DNA of 64,000 nucleotides from Anabaena sp. UHCC 0204 (lineage in GTDB: Bacteria; Cyanobacteriota; Cyanobacteriia; Cyanobacteriales; Nostocaceae). Positions 43,955 through 57,550 of the stretch are shown here, piece after piece. The notes under the pieces were generated by a model. That model saw only the letters and a list, made by a program, of their open reading frames with translations. It was not told the origin of the DNA and made no database searches. The position numbers and the translations under genes are program-made. Location: positions 48,986-112,985 of the forward strand of contig NZ_VIKW01000003.1 of the NCBI RefSeq assembly GCF_009711975.1, written 5' to 3'. The number at the start of each line of letters is the position of its first letter. Position 1 is the stretch's first letter.

Positions 43955-45295
43955 TTAATCTCCAGTAATAGAAAGTTCACTTACCCAAACCCTGGGAGAA
44001 ACTCCTCCAGGTGTTAACTCCACCTCTTTCTCTACATAAACAATAGATTTCAAAAGTTCCAAGAAATCACCAGCTACCGTTGCTGATTCAATACTGATTT
44101 TCTCACCCTTATTAACTAACCAACCATCAAAAGGCAAAGAAAAAGAACCTTGTAAAGCCTTAACACCCGCATGAAGAGCTTGTAAATCATCAATTAAAAT
44201 CACATTTTCCGCAGTTTCTAAACTCAATTCTTTTTCAGGAGTTCCTGCTGCAAAAACGTGATAAAAATTAGGACTGACACTCACTTTTGCGCCAATACTA
44301 GCATTACCTGTAGGTTGAGAATTTAACCGTTTAGCAGTTCCCGCACTATGCAAAAAGCTAGTTAAAATTCCCTTTTCTATTAACTTAATTTGCCGGGTTG
44401 GTGTTCCTTCACCATCAAAACTTTCTGCACCAATATTAGCCGGGTGTAAAGCATCATCATAAACTGAAAGTAAAGGTGAAGCAAGTTCTTTACCAATATC
44501 ATCAGTTTTCGATAAACTTTGATTATCAAGAATACTTTGGGCATTAAATAAATTAGAAAAAGCCCCCAACAAACTTAAAAAAGCTTCAGGAGAGAAAACT
44601 ACTTGATATTTACCAGTTTTGATTTTTTCATAATGCAAATGACTGATAGTTTTCTCAGCAGTTTCCTTTATACAACCAGCAATATCTAAATCAGCTACAC
44701 TTTCCTTGACTCGATAAGCACCTCCACTGCGGGGTTTTTTCCCTTCCTCCTCAGTTTTGCTATACAAATAAATAGAAGCTAAAGAATGAGACTCAGTTCT
44801 TAAAGCCCCTTCACTATTGAGATAAAACCTGTCAATATCTCTTTGTGCTAACCCATTATAAGGTACTCCCTTAATAGCAGGATGAGTTGCTAACAATTCC
44901 TTTTCTGCTACTAATAGCTTTTCTATCAGTTCAGAAACAGGTGCTTGGAGGGCTTTTTCTTGATGTGTATTGGGGATAGGAATAGTTGCTTCTGGACTAA
45001 AATCAGGAACATTTTCCTTCACACCAAAAAAGCTCGCTTCATAAGCTGTTTTTAAAGCTAATTCTAATCCTTGAGGATCTACATCTGTAGTGCTGGTAAC
45101 ACCCATTGTATTTTCCTCGTTCCAAACTCGAACTGTTACTCCAGAACGATTGGAAGCTTTAACTTGTTTGGGTTCACCTTGGTCAACTTGAACGCTGGTA
45201 TCATCTACTGTTGAGCCGTAAATGTCAAACTTCTTAATGCCAAGTTTGTCGGCATTTTCTTGGGCGTAAGTTGCGATTTCTTGTATTTTTGGCAT
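43955..45295 (-). CDS. TldE/PmbA-family protein
   Basis: A 446-residue protein of the TldD/PmbA family lacking the metal site, so it is the TldE (PmbA) subunit. Blocks: VRVWNEENTMGVTSTTDVDP, PHNGL-like YNGLAQRDIDRFYLNSEGA and SFDGEGTPTRQIKLIEKGIL. The frame opens at a TTG (45328), but ATG 45295 is the better start. In Escherichia coli TldD and TldE form a heterodimeric protease that matures microcin B17 and trims unfolded peptides. The TldD gene lies just upstream on the same strand. Confidence 0.9.
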   Translation of the reverse strand: MPKIQEIATYAQENADKLGIKKFDIYGSTVDDTSVQVDQGEPKQVKASNRSGVTVRVWNEENTMGVTSTTDVDPQGLELALKTAYEASFFGVKENVPDFSPEATIPIPNTHQEKALQAPVSELIEKLLVAEKELLATHPAIKGVPYNGLAQRDIDRFYLNSEGALRTESHSLASIYLYSKTEEEGKKPRSGGAYRVKESVADLDIAGCIKETAEKTISHLHYEKIKTGKYQVVFSPEAFLSLLGAFSNLFNAQSILDNQSLSKTDDIGKELASPLLSVYDDALHPANIGAESFDGEGTPTRQIKLIEKGILTSFLHSAGTAKRLNSQPTGNASIGAKVSVSPNFYHVFAAGTPEKELSLETAENVILIDDLQALHAGVKALQGSFSLPFDGWLVNKGEKISIESATVAGDFLELLKSIVYVEKEVELTPGGVSPRVWVSELSITGD

Positions 45296-45468
45296 AATCA
45301 AATCAACTTGGGATTTTAGATTTAACAAAAGTGCGGTTTTAAAATTGGATTTTGGATGTGATTATTTAGATTATTACTAAGGCATGAACTCATGTTACTC
45401 TCCGCGCCTCTGCGTCTCTGCGTGAGACATATATACTTTGTATTCACAAGCCAAAATCCAAAATTTAG

Positions 45469-46941
45469 TTATCTACCACCAACAGTAATAGAATCAACTT
45501 TTATATGGGGTTGTCCAACTGTGGTGTAAATGCTGCCGCTAACTGAACCACAAAAGCCGGGAGCTAGTTCTAAATCTTGGGAACATAGGGAAATTTTATT
45601 CATAATTTCCTTGGCTTCACCAATGAGGGTAGCACCTTTTAATGGTTTGGTAATTTTGCCATTTTCTATTAAGTAAGCTTCGTCAACACTAAAGTTAAAT
45701 TGACCTGTTGCGCCGACACTTCCGCCACCCATTTTCTTACAGTAAATGCCTTTATCAACGGAGGCAAATAGGTCTTCTGTTGTATGTTCTCCACAATCAA
45801 TATATGTATTTCGCATCCGACTAGCGGCAGCAAAAGTGTAATTTTGACGGCGGCCACTGCCTGTTCTGGGATGTCCGGTACGCACTGAACCGGTTCTGTC
45901 AGCGAGGAAGTTTTTGAGAATACCTTTTTCAATTAATAATGTTCTTTGGGCGGGCATTCCTTCGTCATCCATATCAATCGTGCCAAAGGCATTATCAGCC
46001 CGTCCTTCGTCCCAAGCTGTTAAACTTTCGTGGGCGATTTTTTCACCTTTTTTATCGGCAAATGGTGTGGTTTGGCGTTCAATTTGGGTGGTTTCTAACA
46101 AGTGTCCGCAAGCTTCATGGAAAATTACGCCGCCAAAGTGATTGGCCATGATAATCGGGTAAGTTCCTGATTCTACGTAATCTGCATAAAGCATTTTACC
46201 GGCTGATTCGGCGATTTGTTCGGAGGCTTGTTGATAATCCCAGGTTTTCAAGAAGTTAGGATCACTGGTGTTACCAGCCCGTTCACCAATGGAGGAACGG
46301 TTAGCACCGTCAGCACAAAGCAGGTTAAAGCCGACGGACTGGGTGAGGCGGATATCACGGGCAAATGTGCCGTCACTGGCTGCAACTAATACTTCTTGCC
46401 AATCACGGAAGTAGGAAGCGCGACGGGATTGGACGTGAGTAGCTTTTTTATTCAGTTGGGCTGTACCATCAAGGAGGACTTCTCCCATTTCGCGGATAGA
46501 ACTACACAAGGGTAGCCAAGAGTCTTTACCACGTTTGCTGGCGTAGTCTCTGAGTAATTCTAGGTTGATTTCGGGGATGAAGGCACTTGGACCTGGTAGT
46601 TGTAATCCTAAGATGGAAAGAGCTTTTTCTAAGGCGGCTTTTAAACCAGCAAATGTGAGATTATTTGTGCTAACGTAGCAGTCAGCTTTGCCGCGAAATA
46701 CTCGCACTCCTGCACCAGTGGCTAAACTGGGGGAAATGCTGGTGATGGTGTCTTCTTCGGCTAAACAACTGATGTAGTTGCGATGTTCTAAGAAGTATTC
46801 AATAAAGTCAGCACCAGCGGCGCGTCCTAGTCCCAAAAGGGTTGCCAGTGGGGCTTCCCAGGTTTCATCAAATCGTTCTGATGTGGATGAATATTGGAGA
46901 TTCGGAAGTTGATTTGAGAGAAGTAGCGTGTTTGTAAGCAT
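45469..46941 (-). CDS. tldD: TldD-family metalloprotease
   Basis: A 490-residue protein with the metal-binding HEACGH motif (H275, E276, H280) in [18 protein letters not shown] and a conserved Cys near residue 463 ([11 protein letters not shown]), the zinc site of TldD. It also has [20 protein letters not shown] and [15 protein letters not shown]. It is the catalytic subunit of the TldD/TldE protease. It is transcribed before TldE, 173 bp away. It stands about 3 kb from a lanthipeptide cluster. Confidence 0.92.
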
Positions 46942-48196: not shown

Positions 48197-49690
48197 TTAT
48201 AAGTTCGTCAATAATCTGGTTTTTCTCAAAATAAATGTTAATACGGTCTCTTCCTCAGCAATAATATCTGCCACCACTTCCATTCCCGCTTGAATGGGAT
48301 ATTTTTGTAAATCTCTTTGCAAATGTAGCTTTTCGGGTTCAATTGTTACTTCAAAATAAGATTCTCCTGTGTTATTCCCCTGGGGTAAAATCACATCTGC
48401 TGTAATTGACCTCACTGCACCTTCAAGTATACCATAATCAGGGTAAGGATAGGCAGAAAATCGCATTTTTACTTTGCCTATTTGGCAATTTACAACTTCT
48501 TGAGAATTGCAAACAAAGACTTTACTAATATCAGCAGTAGCGACACGAGCTTTAATAATTAAAGGGGTATGACTGGGAGCAATTTGAGCAATAGAACTAC
48601 CAGGATTTACTACCTGTCCAGGATTTCGCAAATCTAATTTTAAAATAGTTCCAGTTGCAGCAGCGCGAATTATTGTTTTTTGAATTTGTGTTAAAACTTG
48701 TTTGAGTTCTTTTTCGGTGTTATTTATCTGGCTTTGAATTTCAAGTTGACGTTGAATTAAACTGTCTTTTTCTTGCTGTAATCTCGCTAAATTAGTTTTA
48801 CCATTAGCGCGTTCAGTAGCTATTTTTTCTTCAGCGATGGAAATTACTGCATTACTCGGATTGAGAGATGAATCAGCTTTTTTACTTCTAGCGATCGCAG
48901 ATGTTAAAGCTTGTTGTGTTTGTTGAATAACTTGTTTTTGACTTGCTAATGTGGCTTTTTGTGATTCTACAATTTGTGCTTGTTGAATTGCAGCTAGTTG
49001 AACTTCTTCTAATTGATTTTGGGAAATTGAACCAGTTTTAGCTATATCTTCATAACGTAAACGTTTGACTATTGCGGCTTTTAATCCTGCTTCTGCACTT
49101 TCTAAATTAGCCTGAATTGACTGCAATTCTAATCTTACTCGCAGTAATTCATTTTTAGCAATCTTTATATTAGCTTGTGCTTCTTCCCATTCACTACTAA
49201 CAGCTACTTTTCTCTCTTGATAATCTCTTTCTGTACCCTGTAGTTCAGCTAAAGCAGATGCAACAAGGCGTTGATTTCTTTCTGTTTCTGTCGCAATTTG
49301 CCGATTTAAAGCCTGAATTTGAGCATCTAATTGTGCAAACTGTAATTGAGATTTTTGCACATTTCCTTGAAGTTGATTTTTTTGATTTTGTAATTGGGTA
49401 TCATCCAGAATTACTAAAACATCACCTTGTTTGACTATTTGATTTTCTTTAACAGAGATTTTTTTAACAGTTCCTTCTATTGCAGCTTCCACTATTCGTA
49501 CTTCACCAATAGGACGAACAGTAGCAGATACTTTGACAGTTTGCTGATATTTTGTGAAAGCAGAAATAGTCACAGCAGCACCAACAACACCAACTAAAAA
49601 TAATCCTCCTAATCTTGTCCAAATAGCAATGTTAGGTAAGTATTCATCTGATTTTGCAGTTGGTAAAAAAGTGGGAATTGTTTGATTCAT
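48197..49690 (-). CDS. HlyD-family membrane fusion protein of the lanthipeptide cluster
   Basis: A 497-residue adaptor: one N-terminal membrane helix (about 29-46, LGGLFLVGVVGAAVTISAF), a first lipoyl half (IEGTVKKISVKENQIVKQGD), a very long coiled-coil hairpin (about 85-345), a second lipoyl half (AAATGTILKLDLRNPGQVVN), then a beta-barrel. It links an inner-membrane exporter to an outer-membrane channel. It is the last gene of the cluster on the - strand, after the precursor, and probably works with the C39-peptidase ABC transporter to take the product across both membranes. Confidence 0.88.
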   Translation of the reverse strand: MNQTIPTFLPTAKSDEYLPNIAIWTRLGGLFLVGVVGAAVTISAFTKYQQTVKVSATVRPIGEVRIVEAAIEGTVKKISVKENQIVKQGDVLVILDDTQLQNQKNQLQGNVQKSQLQFAQLDAQIQALNRQIATETERNQRLVASALAELQGTERDYQERKVAVSSEWEEAQANIKIAKNELLRVRLELQSIQANLESAEAGLKAAIVKRLRYEDIAKTGSISQNQLEEVQLAAIQQAQIVESQKATLASQKQVIQQTQQALTSAIARSKKADSSLNPSNAVISIAEEKIATERANGKTNLARLQQEKDSLIQRQLEIQSQINNTEKELKQVLTQIQKTIIRAAATGTILKLDLRNPGQVVNPGSSIAQIAPSHTPLIIKARVATADISKVFVCNSQEVVNCQIGKVKMRFSAYPYPDYGILEGAVRSITADVILPQGNNTGESYFEVTIEPEKLHLQRDLQKYPIQAGMEVVADIIAEEETVLTFILRKTRLLTNL

Positions 49691-49955: not shown

Positions 49956-50177
49956 TTAGAAGCTGAGTTCTTCTGCTCCAATAGGTTTACAACCTACCCA
50001 TAATGTGTGGAAAGGATCTCCACAGGTTGTACAACCACCAGAAACCGAGGACATATCTTCATCATTAAGTTCAACTAAACCAGCGGGGTTTGCTGGTAGC
50101 TGTTCCTGTTGTTCAGCACTTAAGCTATGACGATATTCCTCGTCTTTCCAAGCGCGAATGATATCTAGATTAGACAT
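49956..50177 (-). CDS. Class II lanthipeptide precursor, mersacidin/lichenicidin type
   Basis: A 73-residue precursor. The leader starts SNLDIIRAWKDEEYRHSLSA, the mersacidin-family signature, and ends at the double Gly of MSSVSGG (residues 47-48). The predicted core (49-73) is 25 residues: Cys at 49, 52 and 63; Thr at 50, 51 and 58; Ser at 72. At most three thioether rings could form. It begins CTTC, like mersacidin's Cys-Thr start, and ends in an acidic EELSF tail. GAGG lies 6 bp before the ATG. It is placed between the exporter and the HlyD genes. Confidence 0.9.
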   Translation of the reverse strand: MSNLDIIRAWKDEEYRHSLSAEQQEQLPANPAGLVELNDEDMSSVSGGCTTCGDPFHTLWVGCKPIGAEELSF

Positions 50178-50352
50178 ATTTTACCTCATTAAAAAATTCT
50201 ACGTCTTAACTAGGAAATAGCGAAATATTCCCCAGAAGTCGCAGTTGTCAAAGTATGATTGATGACATTTTCACCAACTCCAGAATAATAATCATTCTCA
50301 TTAAAAATGTCAAGTAATCTATCCGTGTACAGTAAATCTGCTTAAGTACAGG

Positions 50353-52497
50353 TTAGGGAATTAAAAACTCTAAATGCTCACCTGCTATGCTCAGTAGTTC
50401 CGCAGGAGTACCTTGTAGTTTTAATTGTCCAGCATCTAACAGGACAATCCAATCTGCGCGTTTAATTACTCTTGGACGATGACTAATCAAAATAGTAGTT
50501 TTACCTTGACGATAAGTGAGTAATTGATCTAAAACTAAACTTTCACTAAGGGGATCTAAACCTGCGGTAGATTCATCTAAAATCAAGATGGGAGGATTAG
50601 TAATAATTCCTCTTGCTATAGCTAATCTTTGTTTTTGTCCACCGGAAAGATTCGCTCCAAATTCACCTAAAATAGTTTGATATTTTTCGGGTAATTTACT
50701 AATAAAATTATCTGCATCTGCAACTTGACAAGCGGTGACTATTTGCTCAAAATTCACCTGGGGAAGACCAAGAGATAAGTTATCTAAAATAGAACGACTC
50801 CAAAAATTTGCATCTTGAGGAATTAATACTATTTGTTGACGTAAGCAGCTAGGATTAATATCAGAAAGGTTGTAATGATGAATGCGAATATTCCCAGACT
50901 GGGGATGATATAAACTAGCAATTAATTTTGCTAAGGTACTTTTACCACATCCAGATTTACCGATAATTGCAATGACTTTTCCTCCTGGTAAAGTTAAAGA
51001 AAAGTCTTTTAATAAATCAACTCTACCAGCATGATGAAAATTGATATCTTTACAAACAATCTCCGCGTTGTCGGGAATATTTACAAAAGGTTTTTGACTG
51101 ACTTCTGAAAATTCAGGAGTTGAGTTAATTACCTCATTTAATCTTTCAGTTGCAGCTTGAGCGCGAGTAAAGTCAGTAATGAAGCGAACGCAGGTATTTA
51201 CTAAACCTAGAATATTGGCATTTAAACTATTAAAAGCTAATAATTGACCGATAGAAAGCTCTCGATTAATAACTAAAATACTTCCATACCATAGCAGAAT
51301 AATTCCACCAGCAGTAGATACCCAATTAGAAAAAATCGTATTTGTTAAAACAATTTGGACAGTGCGAAACATTAAATTTGATTGTCTTCCGTAGCGAGTT
51401 TGAAATTCTTGCCAAAATTCTGGTGCAGCATTGGTGGTTTTCACAACTAATGCACCTTTAAAAGTTTCAACTAATACACCTTGGTTTTCGGAAGCTAAAC
51501 CCATAACAGTACGGATTTTTTGCTGTAAAGTGGGGAAATAAAGCACTGTTGAGAAAGTCATAATAATAGCTATGAATATGGATATTAAAGTCAGTTGAGA
51601 ATTGTAGAATAACATCAGAATCAAAGAAGTTATGGCAATTAATAATTGACTTGGTAAGTTTACCCCAACTTGAGAAACCAATTGATTAATGGTTTGAATA
51701 TCTCGTAATCTACTAACTACTTCCCCACTGCGACGAGATTCATAATAAGATAAGGGTAAACGTAAAATATTTCTAGCAAATTCCCATACTAAATCTAATT
51801 CTAAACGATGGGCAAAATAGGATACTAAATTTCCTTGCACCCATTGTAAACAGCTACTAATAAAACTCATTGTTAATATTCCTAATGCAATCGCTGTAAG
51901 TAATTGGGTGTCTCCACGCACTAAAACATCATCAGTAAGAATTTGAATTAAAAATGGTGATAATAGGGAAAGTAACCCGACGACAAAATTTAATAATAAG
52001 GCTTCTGCAAGGATAAAGCGATAGTTAAAAAGACGCTGGATTAATTTTTTAAACCCTCCCAACTTTTCCCGATCATCTGCTTGTTCTAGAAAATCTACAC
52101 GGGGTTCTAATAGTAGCATAACACTATTAGTCCAACCAGTTAATAAGGCTTCTTTAGTTAAATATCTTACTCCAACTAAAGGATCAGCTAAGATATATTT
52201 TTGATTTTTACGCCCATATAAAACAGTCCAATGATTACCTTTCCAATATATAATTGCTGGAAGAGGAATTTGTTTTTTATCTACTAATTCTAAAGCAGCT
52301 TTAACACCCCTCGCATTAAATCCTAATACCTGCGCTCCTTGTTTGAGATTGAGTAATGTTGTTCCTAATTGTCCTGTTCCAGAGGCTTCACGGACACGGG
52401 TAATTGTGAATAATTGTCCGTAATATTTGCAGATGGTTGCTAAACAAGCTGGTCCACAATCTTCTTCGTTATGTTGTAAAATTATTGGGTATTTCAT
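50353..52497 (-). CDS. Peptidase-containing ABC transporter (LanT-type bacteriocin exporter)
   Basis: About 714 residues. C39 peptidase first (C14 in NEEDCGPACLA, the His in NHWTVLYG, Asp in LADPLVG), then six membrane helices, then a nucleotide-binding domain with Walker A GKSGCGKST near 514, signature LSGGQKQR near 616 and Walker B ILILDEST. It would cut the precursor after its double Gly and export the core. The frame extends to a TTG at 52518 within a dispersed repeat, so ATG 52497 is preferred. It follows lanM by 38 bp. Confidence 0.93.
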   Translation of the reverse strand: MKYPIILQHNEEDCGPACLATICKYYGQLFTITRVREASGTGQLGTTLLNLKQGAQVLGFNARGVKAALELVDKKQIPLPAIIYWKGNHWTVLYGRKNQKYILADPLVGVRYLTKEALLTGWTNSVMLLLEPRVDFLEQADDREKLGGFKKLIQRLFNYRFILAEALLLNFVVGLLSLLSPFLIQILTDDVLVRGDTQLLTAIALGILTMSFISSCLQWVQGNLVSYFAHRLELDLVWEFARNILRLPLSYYESRRSGEVVSRLRDIQTINQLVSQVGVNLPSQLLIAITSLILMLFYNSQLTLISIFIAIIMTFSTVLYFPTLQQKIRTVMGLASENQGVLVETFKGALVVKTTNAAPEFWQEFQTRYGRQSNLMFRTVQIVLTNTIFSNWVSTAGGIILLWYGSILVINRELSIGQLLAFNSLNANILGLVNTCVRFITDFTRAQAATERLNEVINSTPEFSEVSQKPFVNIPDNAEIVCKDINFHHAGRVDLLKDFSLTLPGGKVIAIIGKSGCGKSTLAKLIASLYHPQSGNIRIHHYNLSDINPSCLRQQIVLIPQDANFWSRSILDNLSLGLPQVNFEQIVTACQVADADNFISKLPEKYQTILGEFGANLSGGQKQRLAIARGIITNPPILILDESTAGLDPLSESLVLDQLLTYRQGKTTILISHRPRVIKRADWIVLLDAGQLKLQGTPAELLSIAGEHLEFLIP

Positions 52498-52535
52498 TTT
52501 GATCACGCAAAGGCGCAAAGACGCAAAGATTAAGA

Positions 52536-55500
52536 TTATTGTTTGGGTGGTTCAAGTAGGAGAATGGAAGGGATCATTTCGGGTTGATAAAGGCGTAAAA
52601 GTCCGTAACCAATACCCGCTAAACCTGTCATTAATCCTGGGGTTTCTATTCCTAATGGAACACCACACTGCAGGTGATTTTTTTGGATATCGTCTAATAT
52701 TTGGGAAGCGATTTTTTCGATCTTTCTGGCGATTTCTGGGTAATCTAATTTTGCATTTGCTATTAATAATAAGTCAATGTTTCCTAAGTCTCCATGACAG
52801 AGACAATGGTTATCACCAAATCCTTGTTTGATGGTGGTTTCAATGGCGGTTTTAATTTCTTTATACATGATTAAATTCAGTGCATTCCCTGGGATACCCA
52901 AACGTCCTAAACCAATTCCGGGCGCACCGCTACACCATGCTATCATTGAACTATTTTTTACCTTCTCTTGCCGTAAATCTAACCAGTTACCTGTACTGGG
53001 GTGAAAATGACTGCGTTCGTAGTTAATTGCTGCTATGGCTGCGGTTTGAAATTCTTGTTTTTTGGTAGTTACAGCCAATTTCCACAACGCCCAAGCAAAG
53101 CCAGCACCACCATGTGCAAATCCTGTTAAGGGTTGATTTTCGCTGGCTGGAGATTGCCAACCGATACCAGTATCTGTAATTTGGGCTTGGGTGAGGAGGT
53201 GTTCCCCGCATTGTATAGCAACATCAAGAATAATTTGATCTGGAAAAATTCTATAAAAACTCAGTAAGCTACCAATACAACCAGCAGCACCAGCAATTAT
53301 ATCTAGTTGTTGATCTTGCTCAATTAAGGGTGGTAACTGTTCAACTAATATAAAAGCATCTGCAATTAAACCTGGTTCTCGCCATAATATTCCTAAATGG
53401 GTAAAGGTGTAAATTATCCCTCCCCAACCACTAAATCCGCCGATGAATTTAATTGAGTCGGAATCTCTATTAAGCTTGTCTTTAAGGGTGTTTAGGGCTG
53501 TTTTGGCTAGGTTTGTATAGCTATCATTTTGAGTAATTTTCCCCAGATATGCGAGAAATAAAACTACTCCGGGTATACCTGCATATAAGTCTGTCCCTAA
53601 AGGTGATAATGTCCACTGTTGATTAGGGGTAACGCTTAATCCCATCCAGTTCACAAATTCACCGTTTTTGTGCGCTAGGAGTTCTAAATGGTCGCCAATT
53701 TTACAGGCTGCTTCTAAGAATTGGTTTTTTGTGGTTGGGTTAGTAACTTGGATTTTGCGAGGTTTTTTTCCTAATTTAATTTGATGATTATCCGCAGTTT
53801 TACTCATTTCTAGAGTAGCTAAAGCTGCTTGAATAAACCATGTTTGTCGTTGTAAATCTTTTTCGCTGAGTTTATTTAAGCGATGATGTACTAATTCAAT
53901 TCCTGATTCGTTGAAAAAGTTAGTGATGTGTAAATCTGTGTCTCGATGATATAAATCGCGGGAATGGGGATACGTTGTAAATAGGGGAATATCGTTTTTC
54001 CACAGTGCGTCTTGTTCTGCGGAAATGATTTGGCTCAGTTGCGGACGGTTTTTGACATCTATCCAAAGTTTATCAAATAAGCGATACCTTCGGTAAGCTT
54101 CGCTAACGCTCTCTAAGCCATCTCGTAAAAAATCAGGATGATAACTTTCTCGCAGTAACAAAGCATAGATTCTACTCGCACGCATCACCACCCGCACTTC
54201 ATCTTCTGCAAACTGCGTTAAAATCTCCGTTAATTCTTGCCGATATTTTAATAAAATCTCATAAACTGTTTTAAATCCATTGATTATATCTTCTGTATAT
54301 TCCCAAACATTCACTTCCTGCTGATTTAATTGGGGACGGTTTTGGCTACCTGGAATAACGGCCTGTTGACGTTCAACTCGCATCATATCTGTCCCTACCT
54401 GCACCAGTTTCGGGACTTTTTCCGGTGTCAACTGTCCTCCAGCACCCCCTAAACCACTCATATCAATTCCCGCAGTTTCCGTATTTCCCCAGGCTATCTG
54501 CGGTAACAAACCAACACGCAATACAGAATCTGCAACCATCTCTCTATCCAAAGTATCTGCTGCTGTGGTTGTTATCTCATGACGAGGATGAAATAAAGAT
54601 TCTAAATCAATTAAAATGGGAGATTCTCCCGCTGCAATTAAGTTTTCAAAGTGAAAGTCTGTAGCTTCTAAGCTATACAACAATCCTAAATATCCACCTT
54701 GACGCTGATAAAATCTCTTTAATTCATCTGCTGAATGACATTCTTTAAAGTTAACAAATTCTACCCAACCGTAATTATCCCGATTTAAAATCTTTAAAGT
54801 TGGAAAATTTGGTTTAAAGCCTTTTGCATTTAACCACAACAGCAGTTCTTGAAAATGCACATCTACTGCTAATGATCTCGGCTTATAAACTAACTGCCAA
54901 CCGCTGGCAAATTCTAGTATAATAACTGACTTACCATTATTATGGCTGTCACCCGCTCCCCATTTAACTTTAACTAATTTTTCAGGGTTTGCTGGTGGTT
55001 GAAATTGGTAACAAATATCTACCCAATCATGGCAAAAATGCTGAATAAATTCTAAGCTATTTTCTACCCAGCGATTAATTGTTTCTAAAACTTGTCTAGC
55101 TAAAACCGGGTATTCTTCCCACAATGCTAGTTGCACTTCGGGATTTTTCAAACGTTGTATAAAGCTGGAAAATCTTGATTGAGCATTATCACCCGTTAAC
55201 AAACCTTGTAATCTGGCTACATTCATTTCTAATACTAAGGTTGCATTTACCATTAATAGCAGTTGTTCTGGTAATCCCTCTAATAAAACATCATGAATAT
55301 CACTTAAATTTTCAGGAAGATTTTGTATATTATTTAATCCAGTTTCTAATTTAATCATACCTTGAGCAAGCAAAGGAGCGATCGCATTCAAAAACCCAAA
55401 ATTAGGATGTGTAGATAAACTAGAACTCGATAATAGCGTTCCAATATCTTTATCGTCTAAATGTTTATAACTTTGCTGAATCTCTTTTACCCATTGCAAA

Positions 55501-55739
55501 GGTATAGAATCTACCGTTTGTCCCAAAATACGACAAAGTTGCGCTTCGTTAATTCCTTCTAGTGCTAGTTTTTTGGCAAATAAATCCGTGTCTGCAAAGC
55601 TTGATTCCGATTTCCAAAATTTAATTCTTTTTAATCCCAACTCAACATCATACACCAACTCATCGGAACTAACTGCAATTCGTTCCTTTAATGACATAGC
55701 ACGAAACCAAGCGGAATCTTGACAGTTGACTTTTTTCAT
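52536..55739 (-). CDS. Class II lanthipeptide synthetase (LanM)
   Basis: A 1067-residue bifunctional enzyme. The N-terminal part is a kinase-like dehydratase: K286 in LVYKPRSLAVDVHF, D361/H363/N366 in DFHFENLI and D378 in ILIDLESLF, which phosphorylate Ser/Thr and eliminate phosphate. The C-terminal part (about 680-1067) is a LanC-like cyclase with zinc ligands C936 (AWCSGAPGIG) and C981-H982 (CLCHGDLGN) and GFAHGGAGFAWAL. All catalytic marks are present. It is first in the - strand cluster. A repeat-derived stretch near 54081-54109 encodes SVSEAYRRYR in frame. Confidence 0.95.
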   Translation of the reverse strand: MKKVNCQDSAWFRAMSLKERIAVSSDELVYDVELGLKRIKFWKSESSFADTDLFAKKLALEGINEAQLCRILGQTVDSIPLQWVKEIQQSYKHLDDKDIGTLLSSSSLSTHPNFGFLNAIAPLLAQGMIKLETGLNNIQNLPENLSDIHDVLLEGLPEQLLLMVNATLVLEMNVARLQGLLTGDNAQSRFSSFIQRLKNPEVQLALWEEYPVLARQVLETINRWVENSLEFIQHFCHDWVDICYQFQPPANPEKLVKVKWGAGDSHNNGKSVIILEFASGWQLVYKPRSLAVDVHFQELLLWLNAKGFKPNFPTLKILNRDNYGWVEFVNFKECHSADELKRFYQRQGGYLGLLYSLEATDFHFENLIAAGESPILIDLESLFHPRHEITTTAADTLDREMVADSVLRVGLLPQIAWGNTETAGIDMSGLGGAGGQLTPEKVPKLVQVGTDMMRVERQQAVIPGSQNRPQLNQQEVNVWEYTEDIINGFKTVYEILLKYRQELTEILTQFAEDEVRVVMRASRIYALLLRESYHPDFLRDGLESVSEAYRRYRLFDKLWIDVKNRPQLSQIISAEQDALWKNDIPLFTTYPHSRDLYHRDTDLHITNFFNESGIELVHHRLNKLSEKDLQRQTWFIQAALATLEMSKTADNHQIKLGKKPRKIQVTNPTTKNQFLEAACKIGDHLELLAHKNGEFVNWMGLSVTPNQQWTLSPLGTDLYAGIPGVVLFLAYLGKITQNDSYTNLAKTALNTLKDKLNRDSDSIKFIGGFSGWGGIIYTFTHLGILWREPGLIADAFILVEQLPPLIEQDQQLDIIAGAAGCIGSLLSFYRIFPDQIILDVAIQCGEHLLTQAQITDTGIGWQSPASENQPLTGFAHGGAGFAWALWKLAVTTKKQEFQTAAIAAINYERSHFHPSTGNWLDLRQEKVKNSSMIAWCSGAPGIGLGRLGIPGNALNLIMYKEIKTAIETTIKQGFGDNHCLCHGDLGNIDLLLIANAKLDYPEIARKIEKIASQILDDIQKNHLQCGVPLGIETPGLMTGLAGIGYGLLRLYQPEMIPSILLLEPPKQ

Positions 55740-55782
55740 CTTCTCAGAAACTTACTCAGTGTTTACACGATCGCTTAACTAT

Positions 55783-55801
55783 GATAATAATTATCATTAT
55801 C
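55783..55801. promoter_or_regulatory. Putative Fur box between lanM and the porin gene
   Basis: GATAATAATTATCATTATC matches the classical 19-bp Fur consensus GATAATGATAATCATTATC at 17 of 19 positions. It lies 44 bp from the lanM start and 52 bp from the porin start, a position to repress both divergent genes when iron is plentiful. Confidence 0.7.
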
Positions 55802-55852
55802 TGGCTATCTGTGTAAAGCAGATTCAGATGAGGGTGTATCAGTGAGGATGTG

Positions 55853-57550
55853 ATGTTAAAAGTTTTCTTAGGTTTAGTCTTAGCAACCCCAGTAGTTTTG
55901 ATTTCTTCAGTAGCATGGGGTAGTGAAATAGCAGAAAATGATGATTTAGCACAAGTAACTTCTGTATCTCAGTTGTCTGACGTACAACCGACAGATTGGG
56001 CTTTTAGTGCTTTACAATCTTTAGTAGAACGGTATGGTTGTGTAGCAGGGTATCCCAACGGGACATTCCGGGGAAACCGCGCTATGACTCGTTATGAATT
56101 TGCTGCTGGTTTAAATGCTTGTTTAGACAGAATTAATGAGCTAATAGCCACATCAACTGCTGATTTAGTTCAAAAAGAAGATTTACTTCCTATCCAACGC
56201 CTAAAAGAGGAATTTACCCCAGAATTAGCCACTTTACGCGGGCGGGTGGATGCTGTAGAAAACCGCGCCGAAATTTTAGAAAGTCAGCAATTTTCCACAA
56301 CTACCAAACTTTCCGGTGAAGCGATTTTTGCCATTACTGATGTTTTAAGTGGAGATAGTGATCCTTTTGGCGTGGGTGTACCTCGCAACAGCACTATTTT
56401 CGCTAACAGAGTCCGTCTTAACTTAGTCAGTAGTTTTACAGGTCAAGACGAGCTAAAAATTAGACTCCAAGCAGGTAGCACTCCACACCCCCAAAGGGCG
56501 GGAGGTTTTCGCTATGGTGCAGATCCTGTATTAGCGCAGTTAAGAAGCAGACAAACGACACCAGAAGGTGGACAAACCTTTAATCAAGAGTTTCCTGATC
56601 AAGCTGGTAGTGTAGAATTAGGGACGGTTAGTTATAAGTTTCCAGTAAGTAACAAATTACGAGCGGCTGTATTTGCAAATCGGGGTGAACACGTAGACTA
56701 TTTACCGAATATCTTTAGTACAATTGGTGATGAAGATGGGGGTTCTGGTTCGCTTTCTACCTTTGCTCAATATAGCCCCATTTACCGTATTGGTTCACAA
56801 GGTGCGGGTTTGGGCTTGAATTATGAATTGAATCCGGGTATTAACTTGAGTTTAGGCTATTTAGCCGCAAATGCTAATAGTCCAGAAGATTTAACTCCTA
56901 ATAGCAGTAATGGGACAACGGCCGGAGGTTTGTTTAATGGTCGTTATTCAGCTTTGACGCAATTAAGTATCCAACCAAGCAGAAATTTAGCTTTTGGCTT
57001 AACTTACGTTAATAACTATACTGCGGGAGCGCCGATTTTTCTCAATGATGTGGGGACAATTTCGGCAAACTCTCCGAATTTAACAGCGGATAATAGCCGA
57101 ATTGGGACAAATTCCTATGGGGTAGCGGGTTTATGGAGAGTTTCGCCCAAATTTGCGGTGAATAGTTGGTTTATGTATACTAATGTACAAGGGAAATCAG
57201 CAGGTTCAGATAGTGAGAGTGCAGATATTTACAGTTATGCGATCGCTCTAGCCTTTCCTGATTTGGGTAAAGAAGGTAATCTGGGAGGTATTGTCGTCGG
57301 TGTTCCTCCCCATGCGACTCGTTCCGGTATCGCTAGACCTGCTTTTCGACCCTTCTTCGGTGGTGCAACTGACGTAATTAGCACTATCCCCAATCGTACC
57401 ACACCGTTGCATTTGGAAGCTTTTTATAAGTATAAATTGAATAATAATATTTCCATTACACCTGGTGTAATTTGGTTAGTAGCTCCCAACCAAACCAGTA
57501 ATAATCCTGATGTCGTCATTGGTACGGTGAGGACAACATTCACGTTTTAA
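55853..57550 (+). CDS. Outer-membrane porin with SLH domain (cyanobacterial iron-uptake porin type)
   Basis: About 565 residues. Signal peptide (LKVFLGLVLATPVVLISSVA), an S-layer-homology domain (DVQPTDWAFSALQSLVERYG, CVAGYPNGTFRGNRAMTRYE), a short coiled coil (about 110-145) and a beta-barrel of the OprB-like class (many aromatic-ended strands, final residues TVRTTFTF). The frame's GTG at 55850 is adjacent; ATG 55853 is 5 bp after GAGG and is preferred. Porins of this family in cyanobacteria are linked to passage of inorganic iron. The Fur-like site just upstream fits. Confidence 0.88.
   Translation: MLKVFLGLVLATPVVLISSVAWGSEIAENDDLAQVTSVSQLSDVQPTDWAFSALQSLVERYGCVAGYPNGTFRGNRAMTRYEFAAGLNACLDRINELIATSTADLVQKEDLLPIQRLKEEFTPELATLRGRVDAVENRAEILESQQFSTTTKLSGEAIFAITDVLSGDSDPFGVGVPRNSTIFANRVRLNLVSSFTGQDELKIRLQAGSTPHPQRAGGFRYGADPVLAQLRSRQTTPEGGQTFNQEFPDQAGSVELGTVSYKFPVSNKLRAAVFANRGEHVDYLPNIFSTIGDEDGGSGSLSTFAQYSPIYRIGSQGAGLGLNYELNPGINLSLGYLAANANSPEDLTPNSSNGTTAGGLFNGRYSALTQLSIQPSRNLAFGLTYVNNYTAGAPIFLNDVGTISANSPNLTADNSRIGTNSYGVAGLWRVSPKFAVNSWFMYTNVQGKSAGSDSESADIYSYAIALAFPDLGKEGNLGGIVVGVPPHATRSGIARPAFRPFFGGATDVISTIPNRTTPLHLEAFYKYKLNNNISITPGVIWLVAPNQTSNNPDVVIGTVRTTFTF

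Follow-up and report, generated by a model that had tools for sequence, protein, structure and literature searches.

A predicted zinc-controlled lanthipeptide and porin module in Anabaena sp. UHCC 0204 and its relatives

We analysed a stretch of 64,000 nucleotides from Anabaena sp. UHCC 0204 (the window; contig NZ_VIKW01000003.1, positions 48,986 to 112,985, assembly GCF_009711975.1), in which a class II lanthipeptide cluster, lanM-lanT-lanA-hlyD, stands divergent from an SLH porin gene. We consider it fairly probable that cluster and porin form a Zur-repressed module that is expressed in zinc starvation and makes a zincophore-like peptide, a judgement that blends zinc control with function. 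Zinc control of the cluster is well supported in silico and appears very likely; to the peptide as a candidate zincophore for zinc acquisition we give somewhat less than even chances. A first-pass annotation of the same DNA had proposed peptide production under Fur control during iron starvation. The part of that proposal that stands up well in silico is that a FUR-family regulator responding to a metal controls the cluster; iron is probably the wrong metal. The features are as follows.

48197-49690, minus strand: hlyD, the exporter's periplasmic adaptor (HlyD_3), downstream of lanA
49956-50177, minus strand: lanA, precursor with a 48-residue double-Gly (GG) leader and a 25-residue core (core codons 49959-50033)
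50280-50300, unstranded: second Zur-type box, at the lanA promoter, 21.2 bits; missed by the first-pass annotation
50285-50313, minus strand: predicted sigma-70-like lanA promoter TTGACA-17-TATTAT, 11/12, the best in the scanned region; -10 inside the Zur-type box
50353-52518, minus strand: lanT, C39-peptidase ABC exporter (Peptidase_C39, ABC_membrane and ABC_tran domains)
52536-55739, minus strand: lanM, class II lanthipeptide synthetase of 1067 residues (TIGR03897 at 1052 bits; DUF4135 and LANC_like; LicM2/CylM homologue)
55762-55791, plus strand: predicted sigma-70-like porin promoter TTTACA-18-AATAAT, 10/12; -10 inside the lanM-porin box
55782-55802, unstranded: Zur-type box common to the lanM and porin promoters, 22.6 bits with the Zur matrix
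55790-55817, minus strand: predicted sigma-70-like lanM promoter TTTACA-16-GATAAT, 10/12; -10 inside the lanM-porin box
55853-57550, plus strand: SLH/OprB porin, divergent from lanM (NF033921 at 524 bits, OprB, SLH); a GTG at 55850 is a possible start

The two boxes carry the case for zinc. The cyanobacterial Zur box of RegPrecise is NTNANAATGATNATCATTNTNAN (PMC9337993, in part). We built a Zur matrix on 12 sites that belong to zinc genes in this genome and its relatives, none of them from lan clusters. With this matrix, whose training sites were chosen for their likeness to the RegPrecise box ahead of zinc genes, the lanM-porin region scored 22.6 bits and the lanA region 21.2 bits, within the range that the training sites themselves reach when left out one at a time (11.0 to 23.3). 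The best of 559 other window stretches reached 11.3 bits in the lanM-porin comparison and the best of 360 reached 13.3 bits in the lanA comparison, and none of 3000 first-order Markov sequences attained either score. The FurA matrix, made from 77 published Anabaena FurA sites that are mostly predictions, gave 2.6 bits for lanM-porin, a background value equalled by 258 of the 559 other stretches, and 8.7 bits for lanA, within background at 40 of 360. Ahead of the furA candidate the same matrix scored 15.7 bits and the Zur matrix -0.8. The cluster boxes do not fit the published Anabaena FurA sites, and iron control by FurA was rejected on this comparison with its working positive control.

The iron proposal had been built on a 17/19 match to the E. 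coli Fur consensus between lanM and the porin. This match is indeed there, at 55783-55801 on the plus strand, and rises to 18/19 on the minus strand; it is the sole site with at most two mismatches in the 5.74-Mb genome. At up to three mismatches, the two strands together hold 11 matches to the consensus, two of them being the box itself, versus 24 for the reversed control. By these counts the lanM-porin box exceeds chance and the weaker Fur-consensus matches do not. We think that the box resembles the E. coli consensus because it is a Zur-type palindrome; the published Anabaena FurA consensus, AAATAAATTCTCAATAAAT, is only 58% like the E. coli box (PMC4005646, in part). The iron reading was attractive, and probably wrong.

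Both boxes cover predicted -10 elements. The predicted lanM and porin promoters face each other with both -10 elements under one box, which has a second, overlapping register at 55776-55796. The lanA box likewise has an overlapping register, at 50286-50306 (14.4 bits), and is identical to the TonB-receptor box of the same genome at 19/21 positions. These promoter calls are consensus matches only, 30 such sites being found versus 22.2 in shuffles. Both boxes recur in relatives, as described below.

We asked where else such sites occur in the genome. The 21-base centre of the RegPrecise Zur box has 26 places with at most two mismatches, six of which precede genes: hemB2, a TonB receptor, znuA/SLH porin, lanA, and two overlapping registers at lanM/porin. 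The remaining 20 lie within predicted open reading frames (ORFs), some at their extreme ends (e.g. L067, L069), or between convergent ORFs. The hemB2 site heads a gene run of hemB2, thrS, a COG0523-type GTPase and folE, and thrS2 is preceded by another double Zur-type site with three mismatches. Genes of the kind of hemB2, thrS, znuA and the TonB receptor are Zur targets in Anabaena (PMC6103462, in part), and the sites at hemB2, thrS2, znuA and the TonB receptor of this genome resemble both cluster boxes. None of 10 hemB1 controls has a Zur-type site with at most three mismatches. Bare pattern counts did not rise above their controls and are not used as evidence here; position, conservation and neighbours are used instead. 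Two high-scoring Zur-like sites inside the cobW-like gene of C83 were set aside as coding sequence. The znuA site (L110:3900-3920) separates znuA from a divergent SLH porin that shares 45% identity with the lan porin, a layout like that of lanM/porin. The genome's own thrS2 (L097:14651-16474) is split into two consecutive in-frame ORFs by decay or assembly error; on plasmid A of Trichormus variabilis it is a single gene.

The cluster itself is complete. The porin, lanM, lanT, lanA and hlyD are all present and open, and every structural statement of the first-pass annotation holds. LanM is bifunctional, full length and intact, and is the only LanM match in the host genome at E up to 0.001. Aligned with LicM2, its dehydratase half retains the KPRSL, DFHxEN and LIDLE segments and its cyclase half the WC(S/H)GAPG and LCHG segments, which we take to be the catalytic and zinc segments; the earlier statement that lanM has all its catalytic residues agrees with this alignment. 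The call of a mersacidin-type precursor was equally sound: LanA matches TIGR03898 (mersacidin/lichenicidin family) at 74.6 bits, the cut-off being 23.5, and its core, CTTCGDPFHTLWVGCKPIGAEELSF, has 25 residues with 3 Cys, 3 Thr and 1 Ser. This precursor, with its GG leader and a core holding Cys and Ser/Thr, and the C39 exporter complete a class II lanthipeptide cluster, whose product is expected to be thioether-ringed, of the (methyl)lanthionine type. LanT starts at a TTG, with an alternative in-frame ATG 7 codons downstream, and its residues 5-715 match 4ry2, an 'ABC-type bacteriocin transporter'. The porin's model, NF033921, bears the NCBIfam subfamily name 'iron uptake porin'.

We then compared close relatives. 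LanM matches at E up to 1e-100 occur in 98 of 192 genomes of the family; nine genomes, our own included, have a LanM of at least about 62% identity over its full length, the G008 copy being interrupted by one internal stop, and in two further genomes LanM is broken. A scan of named genomes for relatives yielded two loci. In a comparison of 21 loci, 11 of the close type and 10 with LanM near 50% identity, the divergent porin is present, whole or in pieces, in 11/11 of the former (L072-L079, L090, L091, L032) and in 0/10 of the latter. Where both genes are held, hlyD comes after lanA in 8/8 close-type loci, the decayed L032 not counted. The first-pass annotation had staked its box on presence in related strains with the same cluster. 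The lanM-porin box is retained with few substitutions in all 11 aligned regions (window included), which favours it, and the lanA box in all nine. Among the decayed clusters, L090 has lost the middle of lanM and L091 and L032 are fragments; at least one box persists in each.

The module extends well beyond the family. At E up to 1e-250, LanM was found in 38/388 genomes of the order. Nine of the 17 new order-wide loci have a Zur score of at least 13 within 1.5 kb, one of them (L165) distant from the lanM start, and none of 21 own-family loci (L010-L030) has one. Seven families of the order besides the own one supplied 16 wider clusters, eight picked for a seen site and eight unscanned beforehand. 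Across close-type, Dolichospermum DET69 and wider clusters together, a Zur score of at least 14 bits occurs within 400 bases upstream of lanM in 26/27 cases and of lanA in 25/25. In contrast, none of the upstream regions of the sister LanM group reaches 14 bits (lanM 0/13, lanA 0/12; nine of these clusters were fetched before scanning, four after a clean scan). Missing from both counts is L078, a near-copy of L177. The lanA count lacks L077, L091 and L190, with no lanA in the stretch, and the lanM count lacks L191, with no lanM upstream region; L090 and, for lanM, the decayed L091 were kept. By these predicted sites, the Zur-type lanthipeptide/porin module spans eight families of one cyanobacterial order.

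On a LanM tree of 57 rows, made by a quick method and containing a few long branches and unresolved forks, 2 changes account for the Zur label versus a shuffled mean of 19, and 0/500 shuffles came as low; many control rows were scanned for Zur within 1.5 kb only. This tree leaves out L078, as a near-copy, and L090, whose lanM is broken. The porin is present in 11/16 wider clusters; L179, L180 and L182 have none, and L191 and L192 stop at a contig edge. In a tree with only four paralogues, and without the interrupted L079 and the fragments L091 and L032, the 20 lan-cluster porins form one clade (100/99) separate from these paralogues. The location of hlyD is different in L179 and L180, where it lies elsewhere.

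The core peptides of the Zur group share His. The motif CTTCG[DN]P[FL]HTxxxxC occurs in 8/9 close-type cores, the window's included. With core starts placed by eye, and with a second, more distant lanM next to some of the control precursors (L196, L198), His is present in 25/25 Zur-group cores versus 7/22 sister-group rows (Fisher p 2e-7). Counted by core type, the fairer value since the rows are related, the figures are 9/9 versus 6/16 (p 0.003). Cys amounts to 12.0 per 100 core residues in the Zur group versus 9.9 in the control. Motifs that recur in the otherwise varied Zur-group cores are CTTCGxPxHT, CTTCTGGTGFTHTCNWSC, CTCGSxQCSMPWHH and CNHCC/CTHCC, which would suit metal binding. Mersacidin carries the lipid II motif CTLTxEC; checked by eye, a CTxTxEC-like motif of this type is in 0/25 cores.

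Zinc genes adjoin the module in several relatives. Behind the module, plasmid A of T. variabilis ATCC 29413 (L177, NC_007410.1) carries a pair of metallophosphoesterase-type genes, then GTP-binding-protein genes, hisI, DUF1636, thrS, hemB and genes for a zinc ABC binding protein and an ATPase; beyond a transposase, at about 15 kb from hlyD, comes a TonB receptor. Sites of the Zur type are repeated along this run with scores of 14.0 to 23.4 bits, the one upstream of the TonB receptor scoring 14.0, and the near-copy of the cluster adjoins zinc genes likewise. A Dolichospermum DET69 plasmid (L178, CP070234.1) carries lanM-lanT-lanA-hlyD and, after it, a zinc ABC transporter, GTP-binding genes and folE. 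Typing classes this plasmid and plasmid A as conjugative. The porin of G002 has znuA/znuC-like neighbours with a Zur-type site of 20.7 bits. Zinc-type neighbours occur in 7/16 wider clusters: L180, L181, L183 and L186 have znu, hemB2, cobW or folE homologues, and L184, L187 and L190 only less telling homologues from the hemB2-type run. No zinc-gene neighbour was found in the fetched stretches of four wider control clusters. The NAD(P)-binding protein encoded in the hemB2 run (L097:13337-14575) has a homologue in L183, L184 and L186, placed between lanT and lanA, divergent from lanA and preceded by a strong Zur-type site.

We propose the following mechanism. Zinc-loaded Zur would occupy both boxes and cover three -10 elements, those of lanA, lanM and the porin; as zinc falls, all three promoters would be released. 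LanM would dehydrate and cyclise the core, and LanT would cut off the double-Gly leader and export the small thioether-ringed peptide, with its Cys-derived and His ligands, together with HlyD and a TolC-type channel. The porin would raise outer-membrane permeability at the same time, and the peptide would bind zinc outside the cell and aid its capture. Gene content, boxes, conservation, zinc-gene linkage in several relatives and His in 25 cores were computed here. We infer that Zur binds, that the module responds to zinc, that the peptide is exported and binds zinc, and what the porin lets through. In its fullest form, which we hold only tentatively, the model makes these peptides the first lanthipeptide zincophores, binding Zn(II) by conserved His and free or bridged Cys, released and recovered with a dedicated co-repressed SLH porin. 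The trait would be ancient in a single LanM lineage and would travel, in some cases, on conjugative plasmids along with a whole zinc-starvation island.

Several points weigh against this model. LanM is itself a zinc enzyme and hence costly in zinc shortage. The window cluster has no TonB receptor and no nearby zinc-gene homologue besides the porin, and none of the host's four FUR paralogues was identified as zur by an NCBIfam model above cut-off. Genome-wide, the Zur 21-mer at up to three mismatches is not enriched (225 versus 321 for the control), nor is exact TGANAAYNRTTNTCA (9 versus 11), and only 11/20 hemB2 orthologues have a Zur-type site with at most three mismatches. Selection also counts: eight of the 16 wider clusters were chosen for having a site and four wider controls for having none. 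In DET69 the region upstream of lanM scores 10.5 bits and has no site; the nearest strong one precedes a beta-helix gene. The lanM site counted for L180 belongs to the adjacent upstream lanA. None of the PCC 7120 porins is a known Zur target (PMC9705863), and the predicted FurA targets of that strain include znuA and the porin alr0834 (PMC4005646, in part). The DET69 beta-helix repeat protein gene (L178:13807-16007), with the Zur-type site in front of it, stands directly before lanM.

These FurA predictions would equally suit the iron reading, in which FurA keeps the cluster repressed while iron suffices and iron starvation leads to peptide production. So would the 18/19 match and the porin's family name, the rise of certain porin transcripts under iron limitation (PMC9705863) and the fact that FurA and FurB boxes can overlap (PMC12282138, in part). 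The FurA matrix, however, stays in the background range at both boxes, and the metal genes beside the relatives' clusters are mostly zinc-response genes; we regard iron control as very improbable. Zur control, for its part, is as compatible with killing as with a zincophore: the peptide could be an antibacterial made at zinc shortage against competitors for zinc without binding zinc itself, and its leader is of the mersacidin/lichenicidin lantibiotic family. The region yielded no immunity protein among 10 scanned, however, the cores are without the mersacidin lipid II motif and contain His throughout, and some clusters adjoin zinc uptake genes, all of which makes warfare unlikely, if by no means far-fetched. 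The peptide might instead carry no zinc and act as a signal or envelope factor on the co-regulated porin or outer membrane of zinc-starved filaments. With lanM and porin under one box and the 20 lan porins in one clade, peptide and porin do seem paired. Yet the 17 non-close-type clusters, DET69 now included, comprise 11 with a porin, four with none in the fetched stretch (L179, L180, L182, DET69) and two at a contig edge; the porin is thus not obligatory, and we think such a factor improbable.

Downstream of the cluster lies a TldD/PmbA-like metalloprotease gene pair (43955-46941, minus strand). TldD/PmbA-like proteins can mature peptides, and we considered this pair as the cluster's leader protease; it was rejected, as the fetched stretches of the 21 relative loci hold no homologue of either gene.

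How does the zinc-starvation module compare with known systems? Pseudopaline and staphylopine are reportedly zincophores under Zur control, and to our knowledge none of the named Zur-controlled zincophores is a lanthipeptide. The window's product would share with these a small secreted molecule under Zur control (PMC10957091, in part); it differs in being ribosomal and thioether-ringed, with a zinc binding that is predicted. ZepA, a zinc-binding exoprotein of Anabaena, is likewise Zur-repressed, exported and devoted to zinc supply, with two overlapping Zur sites (PMC10957091, in part), but is a folded protein and not a modified peptide. The Zur regulon of Anabaena PCC 7120 (znuABC, hemB2, thrS2, folE2, COG0523 genes, TonB receptors) has Zur-type palindromes at promoters, some paired and overlapping, and the same kinds of genes bear Zur-type sites in the window's genome; the targets given in the available parts of its descriptions include no lanthipeptide and no porin (PMC6103462, PMC10957091). 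With the class II lantibiotics mersacidin and lichenicidin (TIGR03898) the window cluster shares leader family, GG cleavage site, LanM and C39 exporter; it differs in a core without the mersacidin motif, in its retained His, in its zinc-type control and in its SLH porin partner. The cyanobacterial sister lanM group has the same leader type and a related LanM but diverse cores, several precursors in some clusters, and no Zur site. The nostolysamides are said to be another class II lanthipeptide group, of Nostoc. No report of a Zur-controlled lanthipeptide was found in titles and abstract openings of mainly openly accessible literature, and the words zinc and porin are absent from the main text of two mining papers.

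For many cyanobacterial lanthipeptides both function and trigger are unknown. A conserved zinc-type switch on synthetase, precursor and porin would offer, for a whole lineage, a condition under which to search for the product and a role that can be tested. If the model is true, it would join the biology of ribosomally synthesised and post-translationally modified peptides (RiPPs) to cyanobacterial metal nutrition.

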